From contig JAGNWT010000013.1 in NCBI GenBank assembly GCA_017985935.1, forward strand, positions 1 through 64,000: a DNA stretch of 64,000 bases. Reading direction: 5' to 3'. Below the pieces are notes generated by a model, which was not told the origin of the DNA, ran no database searches, and saw only the letters and a list, made by a program, of their open reading frames with translations. Made by a program: the position numbers and the translations under genes. Shown here one piece after another: positions 6,182-17,381 of the stretch. This stretch comes from Anaerolineales bacterium (lineage in GTDB: Bacteria > Chloroflexota > Anaerolineae > Anaerolineales > Villigracilaceae). The number at the start of each line of letters is the position of its first letter. Within the stretch, counting starts at the first letter, position 1.

Positions 6182-8800
6182 CTATTTACACACGCGATTT
6201 TCATCGCAGACGGGTTGTGGCAGAGGGCATTGAAGTGGAATGGTTGGCTGGCGCGTATAGACCGTTATCTGTTCCCCAGAGACACTGACAGCAAAGGCGT
6301 TGATATCCTTATCTGACCTGCAGCCCAAAACGATCACATCTGCCGAATTCGGAAAATAAGGAATTTCATAAGCAGGCAGGATCACGTAATTTATCCCTTC
6401 AGGTCCGATCAACATAAAAGAGATCCTTGGGAACCCAAGCGTCAGGTACGGGAAAATATTTTTGGGCAAGCCTTTATTTTCAATAAAAAAACGAGGATAC
6501 AAGACGCGTCCATGCACGACACTAAAATCAGGGTTTTGTTGAGCAAACTCTAAAAGAGCAGGTTTATTAATTCCCATTTCTGATAAGGCTCCCTGCCTGT
6601 CCAGTTTCTCAATGAGATCAACTTCAGAAAGAGGCGCATATTTACGAGGATATATTTTCTCAGACAGCGGCAAGGATGTGCCAATGAGAAAAACCGTCAA
6701 TACAATGAGCGGAGCTTTCTTTAACGGAAGCCAACTCCACACGGTCATGCTGAAGGTTTGCGGCGCATCTTCTTCAGACTCCTTTAGCGCCCCAAATAAA
6801 TTCCCGGACCATAGAAACACCTGAAAGAGACCAAGCGCAAAATAAAAAAGAAGAACCCAATCGATCGGCACACCGTAACGACCGCCGGAGGTGCGTCCAA
6901 AGGAATTTGCCAGCGCGTAAAAGATGAATGTCCCCAACGGCACAAGGCTTGATGCTTTGGCATGCCTCCACCCTGCTCCAATTCCAAGTGAGATCAAGAC
7001 CAGATTAATGAACAGGAAGAAGCCGGTGACCGCTGAAATATCCCCGTTCCATTCTGGCTGCCAGAAAGGATAAACCGTTTCGACCGTGTCCCTCAAGCCA
7101 TAAAAGACTGGGGACACAGGCAATGCGAACACAGCCATGGAAATGTTATGGAAGAAATGGGTGGACACAAAATACGGGATCGATGCATCTTCATTCTGCT
7201 TCTGATTCAGATTCGCAGAGAGCCCGATCATTGGGCCAAGGGAGGCAACTTCCTGCTGAGGGGAGATTCGATTCCCTTGAGGCAGGTCAAGCTCCGGCGC
7301 GGGAAGATCCGGATACCTCGCATCGATCACAAGCTGGATCCGGTACAGATAAACATCAAAGACCGATCTATTGTTGGAAGCTCCCCAGGCAAAAGTCCCG
7401 GCAAACATGGAGATCAGCAACAGCAGCCCAAGCAGCACGCCTTGCATCTTCTTCTGCCAGTACACAATAAGAATGAGTATCCCTGCAAAACCCACCAGAA
7501 AAAGGATGTTTGTGCGCAGCATGATCCCCAACCCTGCAAGCCCGCCCATCCATAGCAGGTGGAGATATTTTGCGCCGGGGTCCTTCATCCATGCGACGAG
7601 CAGATACGCGATCAAGGCTACGAAGATCGCCGCAGGGAAGTCGGTTAACAATTGTTTTTGATTGGCAAGATCGATCATGGTGCTTGCCGCAATACTGTTC
7701 ACCCCACGGAGCATGAAAAGAACTGCGAGGGTGATTCCAAAAGGTCGGCCGCGAATCGACTTCCCCAACAGATACATGATGGCTGGCAGCACGGCGTAGA
7801 TCGCAGATTGCAAGGCGACCAGTTGCAGGTAATCCTGCCCTGCAAGCGTGTGCAGGTAAACCAAAAATGCCATGTACAGGGCCCGGTCAAAGAATTCGCC
7901 GTTGTTGATTCCCTGACCGATCAATGCGAATTGACTGCCAAGGTCGAAGGTGGCGGCATCTGAATATGGATGAAACTCAAACGAAGGCGGAAAAGGACCG
8001 GGAACAAAATAGCTGGAAGGCAATGGCTCGCGCGCCCAAAGAAAGGCAGCCACAACCCAGATCAGGATGAATATTAATGAATCAGACCATTTGGAGATGG
8101 ATGACCTCAAGGAGAAGGCGGTCATGCCGATCAGCAGTGAAAGAGTCACCTGCCACGCCAGCGTCGGCACCCCGGCTCCATACCAAAAGCCATCCGCTTC
8201 TGTCACGCCCATGCCTGTGAAAGCCATCATCCCCCAGATCAAGATCGCGGCGACCAATGAAATCAACGAAATCAAAAGCGTCCATTTTTGTGAGCGGAGC
8301 AGGTCCCGAAGGAGCGGAATATGAAGCTCGTAACGCTCAGACCAGGAAAGGATAAAAATAAGGGCACTGGTCAAAAAGAAAAAAGCCAGCAAAGGCAAAA
8401 GACGAATAAAGAATTCTTGAAAATCTCCAAAAACGGAAGACGGCGTTATTAATAGCAAAGAACTTACTGCCAAGCCAATGGATGCCCCAATGAAAATCCT
8501 TTTTGTTGCGGCGGCAGTACCAAACAGTAAATTCCACACTTGACCTGCCCACAATTGACTTCGATATGCTTTCATCGAGACCAAAGCAAAAAAGGCAGCG
8601 ATCATGGACATTGCCGCTACCAACAACCATCGTTGAAGCGAGATGCCGGCAAGTAAATGATTATCAGGATCAGAGGGGATATTAAAAAGAGTCAGGGCAG
8701 CCGCTGCCGCCCCAAGCGATATCAACAGGGCGCAGACTGCGAGAACAAGATGAGTTCTCTTCCACTGGAACTTTTGGTTCGTCTTTGGATCGATCATCAT
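6182..8800 (-). CDS. Large polytopic membrane protein, probable GT-C type glycosyltransferase
   Basis: An 872-residue integral membrane protein with many hydrophobic segments (first at about residues 15-37) and a soluble C-terminal part of roughly 180 residues (after about 690). The first large loop holds acidic/aromatic residues (HPYSDAATFDLG near residue 283), the position where GT-C glycosyltransferases carry catalytic Asp. I do not recognise a specific family. The location, between a WecA-like initiating enzyme and a polysaccharide exporter, suggests glycan assembly using lipid-linked sugars. The ATG at 8800 is one of two adjacent ATGs. Confidence 0.7.
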   Translation of the reverse strand: MMIDPKTNQKFQWKRTHLVLAVCALLISLGAAAAALTLFNIPSDPDNHLLAGISLQRWLLVAAMSMIAAFFALVSMKAYRSQLWAGQVWNLLFGTAAATKRIFIGASIGLAVSSLLLITPSSVFGDFQEFFIRLLPLLAFFFLTSALIFILSWSERYELHIPLLRDLLRSQKWTLLISLISLVAAILIWGMMAFTGMGVTEADGFWYGAGVPTLAWQVTLSLLIGMTAFSLRSSISKWSDSLIFILIWVVAAFLWAREPLPSSYFVPGPFPPSFEFHPYSDAATFDLGSQFALIGQGINNGEFFDRALYMAFLVYLHTLAGQDYLQLVALQSAIYAVLPAIMYLLGKSIRGRPFGITLAVLFMLRGVNSIAASTMIDLANQKQLLTDFPAAIFVALIAYLLVAWMKDPGAKYLHLLWMGGLAGLGIMLRTNILFLVGFAGILILIVYWQKKMQGVLLGLLLLISMFAGTFAWGASNNRSVFDVYLYRIQLVIDARYPDLPAPELDLPQGNRISPQQEVASLGPMIGLSANLNQKQNEDASIPYFVSTHFFHNISMAVFALPVSPVFYGLRDTVETVYPFWQPEWNGDISAVTGFFLFINLVLISLGIGAGWRHAKASSLVPLGTFIFYALANSFGRTSGGRYGVPIDWVLLFYFALGLFQVFLWSGNLFGALKESEEDAPQTFSMTVWSWLPLKKAPLIVLTVFLIGTSLPLSEKIYPRKYAPLSEVDLIEKLDRQGALSEMGINKPALLEFAQQNPDFSVVHGRVLYPRFFIENKGLPKNIFPYLTLGFPRISFMLIGPEGINYVILPAYEIPYFPNSADVIVLGCRSDKDINAFAVSVSGEQITVYTRQPTIPLQCPLPQPVCDENRVCK

Positions 8801-13354: not shown

Positions 13355-13438
13355 GCGACCTGTCAGGAGGCGCGAGGAGAGAGCCCCCTCTTTCCCCCAA
13401 CCTCCATTTAAACCACCTTTTCTCTAAGGAGGAGAAAC

Positions 13439-15211
13439 GTGAAAAAGAACCTTTCTGTTTTACTTTCGCTCGTAGTGTTGGCAAGCATGCTGCTTGCTGC
13501 CTGCGGCGGCGGTGCAGCTGCCACGGAAGCCCCCGCAGCCACCGAAGCTCCCGCGGCCACCGAGGCTCCTGCAGCCACCGAAGCCCCCGCGGCCACTGAA
13601 GCCCCTGTTGTCGAAGGCCAGTCTGTTATCACAAGTAACAGCTATTCCGCCGCCGACTGCGAATACGGTGGCGAGTTCAAGTCGATCGAAGCGGTCGATC
13701 CTCTGACCGTCAAGATCACGCTCTGCGTGCCCGATCCTGCCTTCCCCTCGAAGATCGCCTTCACCTCCTTCGCGGTTCAGCCTGCTGAATACCTCGAAGC
13801 CACTGGTGCCACCGGTGACATCCTCGAGAAGCCCATCGGCACCGGACCTTACATGGTCTCTGAATGGGTTCGCGGCGATCAGCTCGTCTTCACCGCCTTC
13901 CCCGATTACTGGGGCGATGCGGCTCTCTCCGACACCCTCGTGTTCAAGTGGAGCACCGAGTCTGCCCAGCGCTTGACCGAACTCCAGAGCGGCACCGTAG
14001 ACGGTATCGACAACCCCGGTCCCGATGATTTCGCGACCATCGAAGGCGATGCCGCCTTGCAGCTGGCTCCCCGCCCTGCGCTCAACATCATGTACATCGG
14101 CTTCAACAACAATCCCCAGGTTGAAGGCTTCGATAACGCTGCCAATCCTCTCGCCAATGAGATGGTTCGCCAGGCGATCGCCATGGGCATTGACCGCCAG
14201 CGCATCGTGGACAACTTCTATCCTGCCGGATCTGAAGTTGCCTCTCACTTCACCCCCTGCTCGATCCCGAATGGCTGCGTGGGCGAATCCTGGTATGAGT
14301 TCGATGCCGCCGCCGCCAAGGCCATGCTCGCTGAAGCCGGCTATCCCGATGGCTTCGAAACCGTTCTTAACTACCGCGACGTTGTCCGCGGTTACCTCCC
14401 CGACCCGAACGTTGTGGCTCAGGACATTCAGGCTCAGTTGAAGGAAAACCTCAACATCACCGTGAACATCGAAGTGATGGAATCCGGCGCTTTCCTCGAT
14501 GCGGCTGACTCCGGTCAACTGCAGGGCTTGCACTTGCTGGGCTGGGGCGCGGACTATCCCGATATGACCAACTTCGTTGGTTACCACTTCGGCGCCGGCT
14601 CCTCCAAGCAGTTTGGTGACAAGTATGACGATATTGTCGAAAACCTCGACAAGGGCGCCCAGCTCGCTGCCGATGCCGACCGCGCTCCGTTCTACGAAGC
14701 TGCGAACAACGCCATCCGCACCCACGTCCCGATGATCCCTGTTGCTCACGGCGGTTCCGCTGTGGCTTACAAGGCTGGTCTCGAAGGCAACCCGCACGCC
14801 AGCCCGCTCGGTAACGAGTCCTTCTCTGTGATGGGCAACGGCACCGGCACCTTCGTTTGGATGCAGAACGCCGAACCCATCTCGCTCTTCTGCGCTGATG
14901 AGACCGACGGCGAATCCCTGCGCGCCTGCGAACAGGTCACCCAGTCTCTGCTCGGCTACGAAACCGCCGGCACCGCTGTCGAACCTGTTTTGGCTGAATC
15001 CTACGAAGTGAACGAAACCCTCACCGAGTGGACCTTCAAGCTCCGCCCGGGTGTCAAGTTCCACGACGGATCCGACCTCGACTCGATGGACGTTCTCGTT
15101 TCACTCGCTCTGCAGTGGGACGCCGCTCACCCCCTCCACAAGGGTAACACCGGCGCATTCTCCTACTGGAGCGGTCTCTTCGGTCCGTTCCTCAACGCAC
15201 CGGCTGAGTAA
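13439..15211 (+). CDS. Peptide-type ABC binding lipoprotein, circularly permuted
   Basis: Start is GTG with AAGGAGGAG upstream. The 590-residue product has a lipoprotein signal with lipobox Leu-Leu-Ala-Ala-Cys22, then five TEAPAA-type hexapeptides (about 29-58). Family 5 binding-protein (DppA/OppA) domains are present, but in rotated order. Residues about 75-467 match the part that is normally C-terminal (IEAVDPLTVKITL, PIGTGPYMV, PDYWGDA, then the SPLGNESF end). Residues 468-590 match the normal N-terminal part (GTFVWMQNAEPISLF, VEPVLAESYEV, LRPGVKFHDGSD). Both halves seem intact. It precedes two matching permeases, so it probably delivers oligopeptides or similar solutes to them. Confidence 0.9.
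   Translation: MKKNLSVLLSLVVLASMLLAACGGGAAATEAPAATEAPAATEAPAATEAPAATEAPVVEGQSVITSNSYSAADCEYGGEFKSIEAVDPLTVKITLCVPDPAFPSKIAFTSFAVQPAEYLEATGATGDILEKPIGTGPYMVSEWVRGDQLVFTAFPDYWGDAALSDTLVFKWSTESAQRLTELQSGTVDGIDNPGPDDFATIEGDAALQLAPRPALNIMYIGFNNNPQVEGFDNAANPLANEMVRQAIAMGIDRQRIVDNFYPAGSEVASHFTPCSIPNGCVGESWYEFDAAAAKAMLAEAGYPDGFETVLNYRDVVRGYLPDPNVVAQDIQAQLKENLNITVNIEVMESGAFLDAADSGQLQGLHLLGWGADYPDMTNFVGYHFGAGSSKQFGDKYDDIVENLDKGAQLAADADRAPFYEAANNAIRTHVPMIPVAHGGSAVAYKAGLEGNPHASPLGNESFSVMGNGTGTFVWMQNAEPISLFCADETDGESLRACEQVTQSLLGYETAGTAVEPVLAESYEVNETLTEWTFKLRPGVKFHDGSDLDSMDVLVSLALQWDAAHPLHKGNTGAFSYWSGLFGPFLNAPAE
13523..13612 (+). repeat. Five 18-base repeats encoding TEAPAA in the lipoprotein linker
   Basis: Five consecutive degenerate 18-base units encode Thr-Glu-Ala-Pro-Ala-Ala (last unit ends Val-Val). 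They form an extended linker between the lipid anchor and the binding domain. Copy number could vary by slippage. Confidence 0.8.
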
Positions 15212-15232: not shown

Positions 15233-15267
15233 AAGCCCCCCGATGAGATCATCTTGTCGGGGGGCTT
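15233..15267 (+). other. Strong stem-loop between binding protein and permease genes
   Basis: AAGCCCCCCGA (15233-15243) is perfectly complementary to TCGGGGGGCTT (15257-15267). It is followed by CCCCCAAAAAAA rather than a T run, so it is not a classic terminator on this strand. A hairpin here, after the binding protein, may protect the upstream mRNA and allow more binding protein than permease. Confidence 0.65.
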
Positions 15268-15282: not shown

Positions 15283-16362
15283 ATGACCTCATACATCCTT
15301 CGGCGAATTGTTCTAAGCATTCCCGTACTCATCGGTATTTTGTTCGCGACCTTTGCCCTGGCGCGCCTGATCCCCGGCGACCCTTGCCGCGCCATGCTCG
15401 GCGAAAAAGCGACAAAAACAGTTTGTGACGAGTTCATCCATCGTCACGGGTTGGACAAACCCATCGTTGTCCAGTTTGGGGTGTATGTCAACGAGATCGT
15501 TCACGGGGATTTCGGACGCTCTTTCCGCTATTCCAAGCCCATCACCGAACTCCTTTCGGAGCGCCTGCCAATCACTTTTGAACTCAGCCTCGCGGCTTTA
15601 TTGGTCAGTGTGTTGGTTGGCATTCCATTGGGGGTGATCGCCGCAGTGCGCCACAACTCGTGGGTGGATGTGTTGACCATGTTGTGGGCCAACATGGGCG
15701 TCTCCATGCCGGTCTTCTGGCTTGGGTTGATGCTCGCTTATATTTTCTCGCTTACCTTGAAAGACACCATCTTTCAACTGCCGCCCTCCGGGCGCCTGAC
15801 CGCGGGACTGGTTCCCGATCCGTTCTTTGAAATTTGGGGGTGGAAGCTCGTCGAAGGCACTTTTTTATTCACGCTCATGGACTTTATCAGCCGCATGAAC
15901 ATCCTGAATGCGGTCCTCTCTTCCGACTGGAAAGTGTTCAAGGATGCAATACAACATATCATTCTTCCAGCCGTTGCGCTCGGCACCATTCCCATGGCGC
16001 TTATTGCACGCATGACACGCTCATCCATGCTTGAAGTGCTTGGGCAGGATTACATTCGTACAGCGCGAGCCAAAGGGCTGGTACGCAGCAAGGTCATCCT
16101 CAAACACGCATTCCGCAACGCCCTGCTTCCCATTGCCACAGTGGTCGGTCTCTCGTTGGGAAGCCTGCTCGGCGGCGCAGTGTTGACCGAAACCGTTTTC
16201 AATCTCTCCGGCGTGGGACGCATCATGTACGATGCGATCACCGCGCGTGACTATGGCATTGTGCAGGGCTTTACCGTTGTTATTGCGATCTTCTTCGTGG
16301 TCCTGAACCTGCTTGTGGATATTTCCTACGCATACCTAGACCCCCGCATTCGCCTGGATTAA
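15283..16362 (+). CDS. Peptide-type ABC transporter permease (DppB/OppB type)
   Basis: A 359-residue permease with the N-terminal signature ILRRIVLSIPVLIGI and six predicted membrane segments. The EAA loop that contacts the ATPase reads QDYIRTARAKGLVRSKVI, followed by HAFRNALLP. An extra segment between the third and fourth membrane helices (about 160-215) is larger than in E. coli DppB. It starts 71 bases after the binding protein and is followed 5 bases later by the second permease. Confidence 0.94.
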   Translation: MTSYILRRIVLSIPVLIGILFATFALARLIPGDPCRAMLGEKATKTVCDEFIHRHGLDKPIVVQFGVYVNEIVHGDFGRSFRYSKPITELLSERLPITFELSLAALLVSVLVGIPLGVIAAVRHNSWVDVLTMLWANMGVSMPVFWLGLMLAYIFSLTLKDTIFQLPPSGRLTAGLVPDPFFEIWGWKLVEGTFLFTLMDFISRMNILNAVLSSDWKVFKDAIQHIILPAVALGTIPMALIARMTRSSMLEVLGQDYIRTARAKGLVRSKVILKHAFRNALLPIATVVGLSLGSLLGGAVLTETVFNLSGVGRIMYDAITARDYGIVQGFTVVIAIFFVVLNLLVDISYAYLDPRIRLD

Positions 16363-16367
16363 CAGAC

Positions 16368-17330
16368 ATGACCACTCAAACCGCTCCCGTTAAAAAACTG
16401 GATTCAGAAGCCCTCACGCTCGATTCTGTCAGCCTCTGGCAGATCACACGCCGCAGGTTGTTCCGCAGGAAATCATCCGTGCTTGGCATGGTAATCCTGG
16501 TCATTCTGGTATTCATTGCCCTCACCGCCCAGTGGATCGCGCCTTTTGACCCGACCGTCTCAATGCTCGACACAGACAATTACCCGCAAGAGTTTGCCAA
16601 GAAACGTCTTGACCCATGCATTCATTTATTGGGCTGCCCGAAAGAACGTCCCCAACACCTGATGGGGCTGGACGGCAACATCCGTGATGAATTCAGCCGC
16701 CTGCTATTTGGCGCACGCCTGAGCCTGATGATCGGTCTTGCAACCGTGTCCTTTGCCATCGTGATCGGCACCGTGCTTGGCGCGCTTGGCGGTTACTTCG
16801 GCGGATGGATCGACAATGTCATCATGCGCACCATGGATGTACTTCTGGCATTCCCATCACTTTTGCTTGCCATTGCCATCGTGACCGTGCTTGGTCCGGG
16901 GTTGATCAACGCTTTGATCGCGATCGGCATTGTATCCATCCCTGCTTATGCCCGCGTGGTGCGCGCCAGTGTGCTCTCGGTACGCGAGATGGATTACGTC
17001 TCTGCCACGCGCGCGCTCGGAGGCAGCACTTACGAGATCCTGTTCAAGCGTATTCTTCCCAACGCGCTCACCCCATTGATCGTGCAAGGCACACTTGGCA
17101 TTGCCACAGCCATTCTCGATGCCGCTGCGCTGTCCTTCCTTGGGCTGGGAGCGCAACCGCCCACACCCGAGTGGGGGTCAATGCTCGGCGCGGAACGCAA
17201 CCAGGTCTTCACAGCCCCGCATCTCGTTTTTTACCCCGGCTTCATGATCATGATCACTGTGCTGGCGTTCAACTTGTTGGGTGACGGTCTGCGTGATGCG
17301 CTTGACCCGAGATTGGCACACGCAAGTTAA
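16368..17330 (+). CDS. Peptide-type ABC transporter permease (DppC/OppC type)
   Basis: A 320-residue permease with an N-terminal cytoplasmic helix (RRRLFRRKSSVLGM), six membrane segments and the EAA loop MDYVSATRALGGSTYEILFKRILPN. The loop after the first helix is long and contains Cys-x6-Cys (DPCIHLLGCP). It is the last gene of the operon and ends in a bidirectional terminator. The operon has no DppD/DppF ATPases, so these must be encoded elsewhere. Confidence 0.94.
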   Translation: MTTQTAPVKKLDSEALTLDSVSLWQITRRRLFRRKSSVLGMVILVILVFIALTAQWIAPFDPTVSMLDTDNYPQEFAKKRLDPCIHLLGCPKERPQHLMGLDGNIRDEFSRLLFGARLSLMIGLATVSFAIVIGTVLGALGGYFGGWIDNVIMRTMDVLLAFPSLLLAIAIVTVLGPGLINALIAIGIVSIPAYARVVRASVLSVREMDYVSATRALGGSTYEILFKRILPNALTPLIVQGTLGIATAILDAAALSFLGLGAQPPTPEWGSMLGAERNQVFTAPHLVFYPGFMIMITVLAFNLLGDGLRDALDPRLAHAS

Positions 17331-17345
17331 TAAGAAAATTGGAAT

Positions 17346-17381
17346 CAAAAAACGCGGACAATTCACTGTCCGCGTTTTTTT
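17346..17381. terminator. Bidirectional intrinsic terminator
   Basis: ACGCGGACA (17352-17360) pairs with TGTCCGCGT (17367-17375). It is flanked by six A on the left and seven T on the right, so it ends both the ABC operon and the convergent rhomboid/gmk transcript. Confidence 0.9.

Follow-up and report, generated by a model that had tools for sequence, protein, structure and literature searches.

Natural circular permutation of a DppA-type binding lipoprotein in Chloroflexota

The 590-residue lipoprotein encoded at 13439–15211 of the window (the whole stretch of DNA that was analysed, 64,000 nucleotides from an Anaerolineales bacterium) is a natural circular permutant of the DppA-type binding proteins (SBP_bac_5, cluster C). 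Its swapped order of parts is far beyond chance, and three methods, i.e., phmmer search, profile match and Pfam positions, concur on it. Such a permutation had been claimed in a first-pass annotation of the window, which anticipated neither its frequency nor the fusions and the second permutation that are described below. Natural circular permutation of whole transporter-binding proteins is rarely documented, and an old example that extends through the phylum and concerns a very large family of transporters, together with a second, differently cut one in the same genome, allows asking whether the membrane tethering of binding proteins selects for permutation. It also has practical sides, since domain annotation that is blind to order silently misreads permuted genes, and natural permutants with tolerated ends would be useful biosensor scaffolds.

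Gene and order of the chain

The open reading frame begins with GTG and is free of internal stops. The elements of the gene, all on the forward strand, are listed below with the evidence for each.

13426–13432, forward: ribosome-binding site AAGGAGG (sequence)
13439–15211, forward: permuted SBP_bac_5 lipoprotein gene, 590 aa (ORF, Pfam and phmmer)
13439–13504, forward: signal peptide with lipobox LAAC and lipidated Cys22 (translation)
13520–13607, forward: ATEAPA repeat linker, predicted disordered (AlphaFold2 and sequence)
13658–13660, forward: Cys74 next to the new N-terminus, found in every aligned permuted protein (alignment)
13661–14833, forward: residues 75–465, equivalent to DppA mature 126–501, the usual C-terminal three quarters (phmmer, structure alignment and alignment)
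13724–13726, forward: Cys96, likely partner of Cys74, missing in 28 of 28 normal-order relatives (alignment)
14387–14389, forward: Arg317, equivalent to DppA R383, which in DppA holds the peptide carboxylate (alignment)
14552–14554, forward: Asp372, equivalent to DppA D436, which in DppA holds the peptide amino group (alignment)
14834–14848, forward: linker GNGTG, from the old C-terminus to the old N-terminus (alignment)
14849–15208, forward: residues 471–590, equivalent to DppA mature 2–118, the usual N-terminal quarter (phmmer, profile match and alignment)

SBP_bac_5 (PF00496) is the only family above the Pfam cut-off in the 590-residue protein, and its match falls in two stretches (264.5 bits, cut-off 32.4). 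When PDB sequences were searched with phmmer, residues 79–438 were placed on 125–479 of 3m8u (139 bits) and residues 472–580 on 5–120 of the same entry (37 bits); on mature E. coli DppA (1dpp) residues 82–462 were placed on 126–501, and residues 472–581 correspond to 2–118. The profile of residues 465–590, built from 55 relatives, matches DppA mature 2–118 as well (E 6e-22), and a scan of the organism's own genome located Pfam positions 62–365 at 13667–14602 and positions 2–52 downstream of them, at 14978–15130. The canonical SBP_bac_5 order, with the N-terminal quarter first, is absent, and DppA 126–501 precedes 2–118.

Combined, the two parts cover DppA 2–501 nearly fully and with zero overlap, which agrees with the first-pass claim of two complete halves in one continuous frame. 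The boundaries proposed there (residues 75–467 and 468–590) and the proposed cut, after the YWSG helix and before the VDPLTV strand, were right to within a few residues. The alignment puts the cut between DppA mature 118 and 126, within a loop whose length varies among normal-order relatives; in the OppA/DppA naming we take this loop to belong to domain II, the additional subdomain that packs against the N-lobe, and not to the opposite lobe. The gap that separates the two domain matches is short, 5–13 residues and mostly 6 in 172 homologues.

The score of the protein against the NCBIfam DppA equivalog NF043070 is 171 bits, where the cut-off is 1005, so that it is not DppA itself. As the protein departs from the canonical chain order and falls short of this cut-off, it is best placed in a new, permuted subclass within cluster C and not among its canonical members.

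Operon, ligand residues and likely function

The first-pass annotation noted matching permeases directly downstream, and they were found in the following arrangement.

15233–15267, forward: strong intercistronic hairpin before dppB (−28.7 kcal/mol, z −6.3)
15283–16362, forward: DppB-type permease, with GEK at the position of the E. coli DppB scoop-loop GER (domain matches and sequence)
16368–17330, forward: DppC-type permease (domain matches)
17347–17380, forward: intrinsic terminator-like site at the operon end (sequence)

DppB followed by DppC is also the commonest gene order downstream in homologous loci, most of which encode these permeases and several of which have dppD and dppF in addition. 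No dppD or dppF ATPase genes stand beside the gene in the window; candidate ATPase genes are present on other contigs of the same genome. Stable hairpins between binding-protein and permease genes are devices that keep the binding protein in excess, and the hairpin at 15233–15267, which resembles them, may by analogy give an excess of the lipoprotein over the permease. Elsewhere in the window, an 872-residue ORF on the reverse strand (6182–8800) has zero Pfam matches at E 1e-5.

The carboxyl and amino groups of the dipeptide are held in E. coli DppA by R383 and D436, which in the assembled transporter also contact E41 and R42 of the DppB scoop loop (PMC12136057). Their equivalents are conserved in nearly all distinct permuted proteins, R317 in 136 and D372 in 138 of 140, and only a few very diverged ones are without them (e.g., the protein of locus L080, in which both are lost). 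Because these residues are conserved at the DppA sites and the DppB of the window has GEK at the scoop loop, the most likely ligand would be a small peptide with free ends. By all indirect evidence, the 590-residue protein probably works like DppA.

It is conceivable that the protein is permuted and folded yet serves something else than dipeptide import, i.e., uptake of another small peptide, of an opine-like compound or amino-acid derivative, or sensing. Many ligands are bound by cluster C proteins, the DppA equivalog cut-off is missed widely, and amino-acid-binding domains are joined to some of the homologues; against this stand the conserved R317 and D372, the DppB and DppC neighbours and the GEK of the scoop loop, so that such a role, which keeps some weight, is considered unlikely.

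Proposed mechanism and origin

Very probably, the permuted lipoprotein is the substrate-binding component of a DppABC-type peptide importer; it would be folded, would take its ligand via R317 and D372, and would have originated from a tandem duplication. In binding proteins the lipid anchor usually sits ahead of the N-lobe's first strand. Here a flexible linker would join it to the cut loop of domain II, and a C74–C96 disulfide there would staple the new N-terminus. Closure on the peptide would proceed via R317 for the carboxylate and D372 for the amino group, after which the peptide would be handed to DppB and DppC as it is by E. coli DppA, with the ATPases presumably being those encoded elsewhere in the genome.

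The standard route to circular permutation runs through tandem duplication and fusion, after which the outer parts are lost, and tandem duplication with partial loss fits this gene, in which the fusion would have been in frame. Among the ORFs scanned, no fused-tandem intermediate was found, and a two-gene chimera is conceivable, where the last quarter came from a different binding-protein gene and the permutation is not a strict one. An origin of this kind was suggested for the permuted lipoprotein TpMglB-2 by its authors (PMC4990184). For the protein studied here it is improbable, as both parts have their best matches among DppA/HbpA-type proteins and neither GC nor GC3 shows a step between them; on the latter ground a recent chimera was rejected. 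The final topology is identical under chimera or permutation, and tandem duplication remains the preferred origin.

Predicted fold and the cysteine pair

The AlphaFold2 model, made with 52 relatives, reaches a pLDDT of 91.2 and a pTM of 0.85; 515 of its residues score above 90, and poor order is confined to the first 60 residues. Structures of cluster C top the lists of structure matches. An order-bound aligner placed residues 62–468 of the model on 99–507 of DppA (1dpp), with 386 residues aligned at Z 30.6 and an rmsd of 2.2; aligners of this kind match DppA only over residues 62–469, and for the last quarter they give no counterpart, as is expected of a permutation. The structure prediction that the first-pass annotation had proposed as a check thus returned one confident fold. 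Judged by prediction only, the permuted chain would still make one compact fold.

When residues 465–590 were folded alone, pLDDT was 79 and the first strand was not formed, whereas strand 471–476 is formed in the prediction of the whole protein, which fits a segment that would complete the rest of the fold. The structural matches of the isolated last quarter are weak (Z about 4), but the best of them are DppA-type proteins in the expected N-terminal range.

C74 lies immediately ahead of the strand that opens the fold, and C96 closes the hairpin after it. Both cysteines are present in every permuted protein that has an aligned residue there (136 and 138 proteins, respectively), and none of the 28 normal-order relatives checked has C96. 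A disulfide between C74 and C96 that staples the new N-terminus is likely from this pattern.

A domain-swapped dimer, in which each chain would be completed by the last quarter of its partner, has a parallel in the related pneumococcal binding protein AliC, for which it is named in the title of entry 8qlh. It is nevertheless very improbable here, given the confidence with which a single chain is predicted and the short conserved junction, which fits a direct joining of adjacent termini.

Distribution and phylogeny

Within the same family, 86 of 150 genomes encode full-length colinear homologues, and in the phylum 56 of 400 do; single-contig genomes are among them. The search for other proteins with the same order, which the first-pass annotation had proposed, was thereby answered, and its view that the gene is neither broken nor a product of assembly error was upheld by the same order in many independent genomes. 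The source genome is a draft of 144 contigs, but two normal genes in tandem joined by misassembly, or a transient pseudogene, can be set aside as practically impossible, being ruled out by the recurrence of this order in independent genomes that number from dozens to hundreds (31–84% identity, several of them single-contig) and by the conservation of the 5–13-residue junction, the operon and the ligand residues.

In a test of order with two HMMs, 172 ORFs were scored as permuted and 36 as normal, and the E. coli DppA control was scored as normal. In the tree of the shared part a single branch (SH-aLRT 100) divides 60 permuted from 28 normal-order sequences; since one branch splits them, one origin in Chloroflexota suffices for the permuted proteins of the window type. 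The nearest normal-order relatives found are DppA-like Chloroflexota proteins of 35–36% identity, and one of these, that of locus L201, carries the C485/C497 pair of the permuted clade. Apart from the pair described in the next section, the other SBP_bac_5 genes of the organism's own genome give either a single match or profile hits in the normal order.

The best 80 loci from a scan of about 85,000 species all have titles that point to Chloroflexota, and the cultured Bellilinea caldifistulae GOMI-1 is among them with a full-length colinear homologue. Plasmid records matched in 95 cases, nearly all of the matches ending near the close of the first part; none covered more than 80% of the query, and the one longer match that was opened, from Caballeronia, has the normal order. 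Outside Chloroflexota the scope is given by these best 80 loci and the plasmid records, from which absence elsewhere does not follow. At two loci (L079 and L080) diverged permuted proteins lie near a normal-order relative on the opposite strand, and two sets of permeases and ATPases are present.

A second, differently cut permutation

The organism's own genome encodes two more permuted SBP_bac_5 proteins, on contigs C57 (L227:4302–6848, forward strand, 848 residues) and C55 (L226:10099–12735, reverse strand, 878 residues), which are 49% identical. Both have Pfam positions 147–354 first, and in the L226 protein positions 26–153 are found later. The nearest solved structure is 7fi3, and query residues 98–288 were aligned to 359–568 of its chain, while query residues 474–728 were aligned to 62–306.

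Colinear homologues of this second family were found in 25 of 301 genomes of the phylum, including the single-contig genomes G008 and G063, and all clear members found share the swapped order. Like the window protein, they are Chloroflexota lipoproteins with swapped order and adjacent permeases, with peptide-type ATPases nearby; they differ in the cut, which is near Pfam positions 147–153 and not 52–62, in the extra C-terminal domain of most members, and in forming a separate clade. Both permuted groups are clades with SH-aLRT 100 each, and normal-order proteins stand between them. Two independent permutation events are the simplest reading, which the tree alone does not force.

Comparison with known binding proteins

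The window protein shares with E. coli DppA and with HbpA/GbpA of Haemophilus the fold, as predicted, both sequence parts, the ligand Arg and Asp, and the DppB/DppC partners, while the order of the parts, the place of the anchor and the invariant cysteine pair set it apart, at an identity of about 25–30%. No earlier report of circular permutation in cluster C binding proteins was found in the open-access literature searched. The one precedent found, from another SBP class, is TpMglB-2 (Tp0684) of Treponema pallidum, a permuted type I glucose-binding lipoprotein. Its authors termed it type Ic, or cluster Bc, and suggested that tethering may lie behind the permutation (PMC4990184). Both cases represent a natural, clade-wide permutation of a tethered binding lipoprotein with one bilobed fold, which for the window protein is a predicted one; the likeness is solely one of kind. 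TpMglB-2 differs in belonging to the type I sugar SBP class and in its cut point, and it alone has a poorly conserved permuted part and a fourth hinge crossing (PMC4990184). The window protein does not have the type I (cluster B) sugar-binding fold, as SBP_bac_5 is its sole Pfam family and cluster C structures lead its matches.

Fusions to other binding domains

In 17 ORFs, confirmed with Pfam, an unrelated binding-protein domain lies in frame ahead of the permuted domain. The partner is SBP_bac_3 at loci L090, L148, L151, L157, L160, L163, L166, L167, L169 and L172; Peripla_BP_6 occurs once in L145, L150, L177 and L184 and twice in L177 and L185; and Bmp is found within a 3847-residue ORF of L101. 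The state of the partner changes at least five times on the tree. Other long ORFs, at L112, L035, L036, L039, L044 and L084, were left out of this count; they resemble read-through from upstream. One fusion locus (L148:1333–16939) holds, around the SBP_bac_3-permuted fusion, a branched-chain amino-acid transporter operon, DppB-DppC-DppD-DppF, and a GlnP-type permease with a GlnQ-type ATPase after it. The fusions behind amino-acid-binding domains suggest that the fused forms are receptors which may serve several permeases.

A wider view of these proteins may be offered tentatively, as possible rather than probable. Chloroflexota peptide-binding lipoproteins would have undergone at least two independent permutations, at two loops, and these would have been kept because ends placed away from the first strand of the N-lobe allow tethering, or mounting behind other binding domains, with no strain on the ligand site; the fused forms would then act as multi-ligand receptors, supplying several permeases nearby with amino acids and peptides.

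Some unusual domain combinations were met at the fusion loci. The L101 ORF (4445–15988) contains, besides Bmp and the permuted SBP_bac_5, an extra partial SBP_bac_5 and a Flg_new_2 (InlB B-type) repeat. At L160:6771–9536 a match to the haem-binding domain of quinohemoprotein amine dehydrogenase lies ahead of SBP_bac_3 in the fusion. At L148:13921–16182, N-terminal WD40 repeats are joined to an amino-acid (GlnP-type) ABC permease in an odd 753-residue protein.
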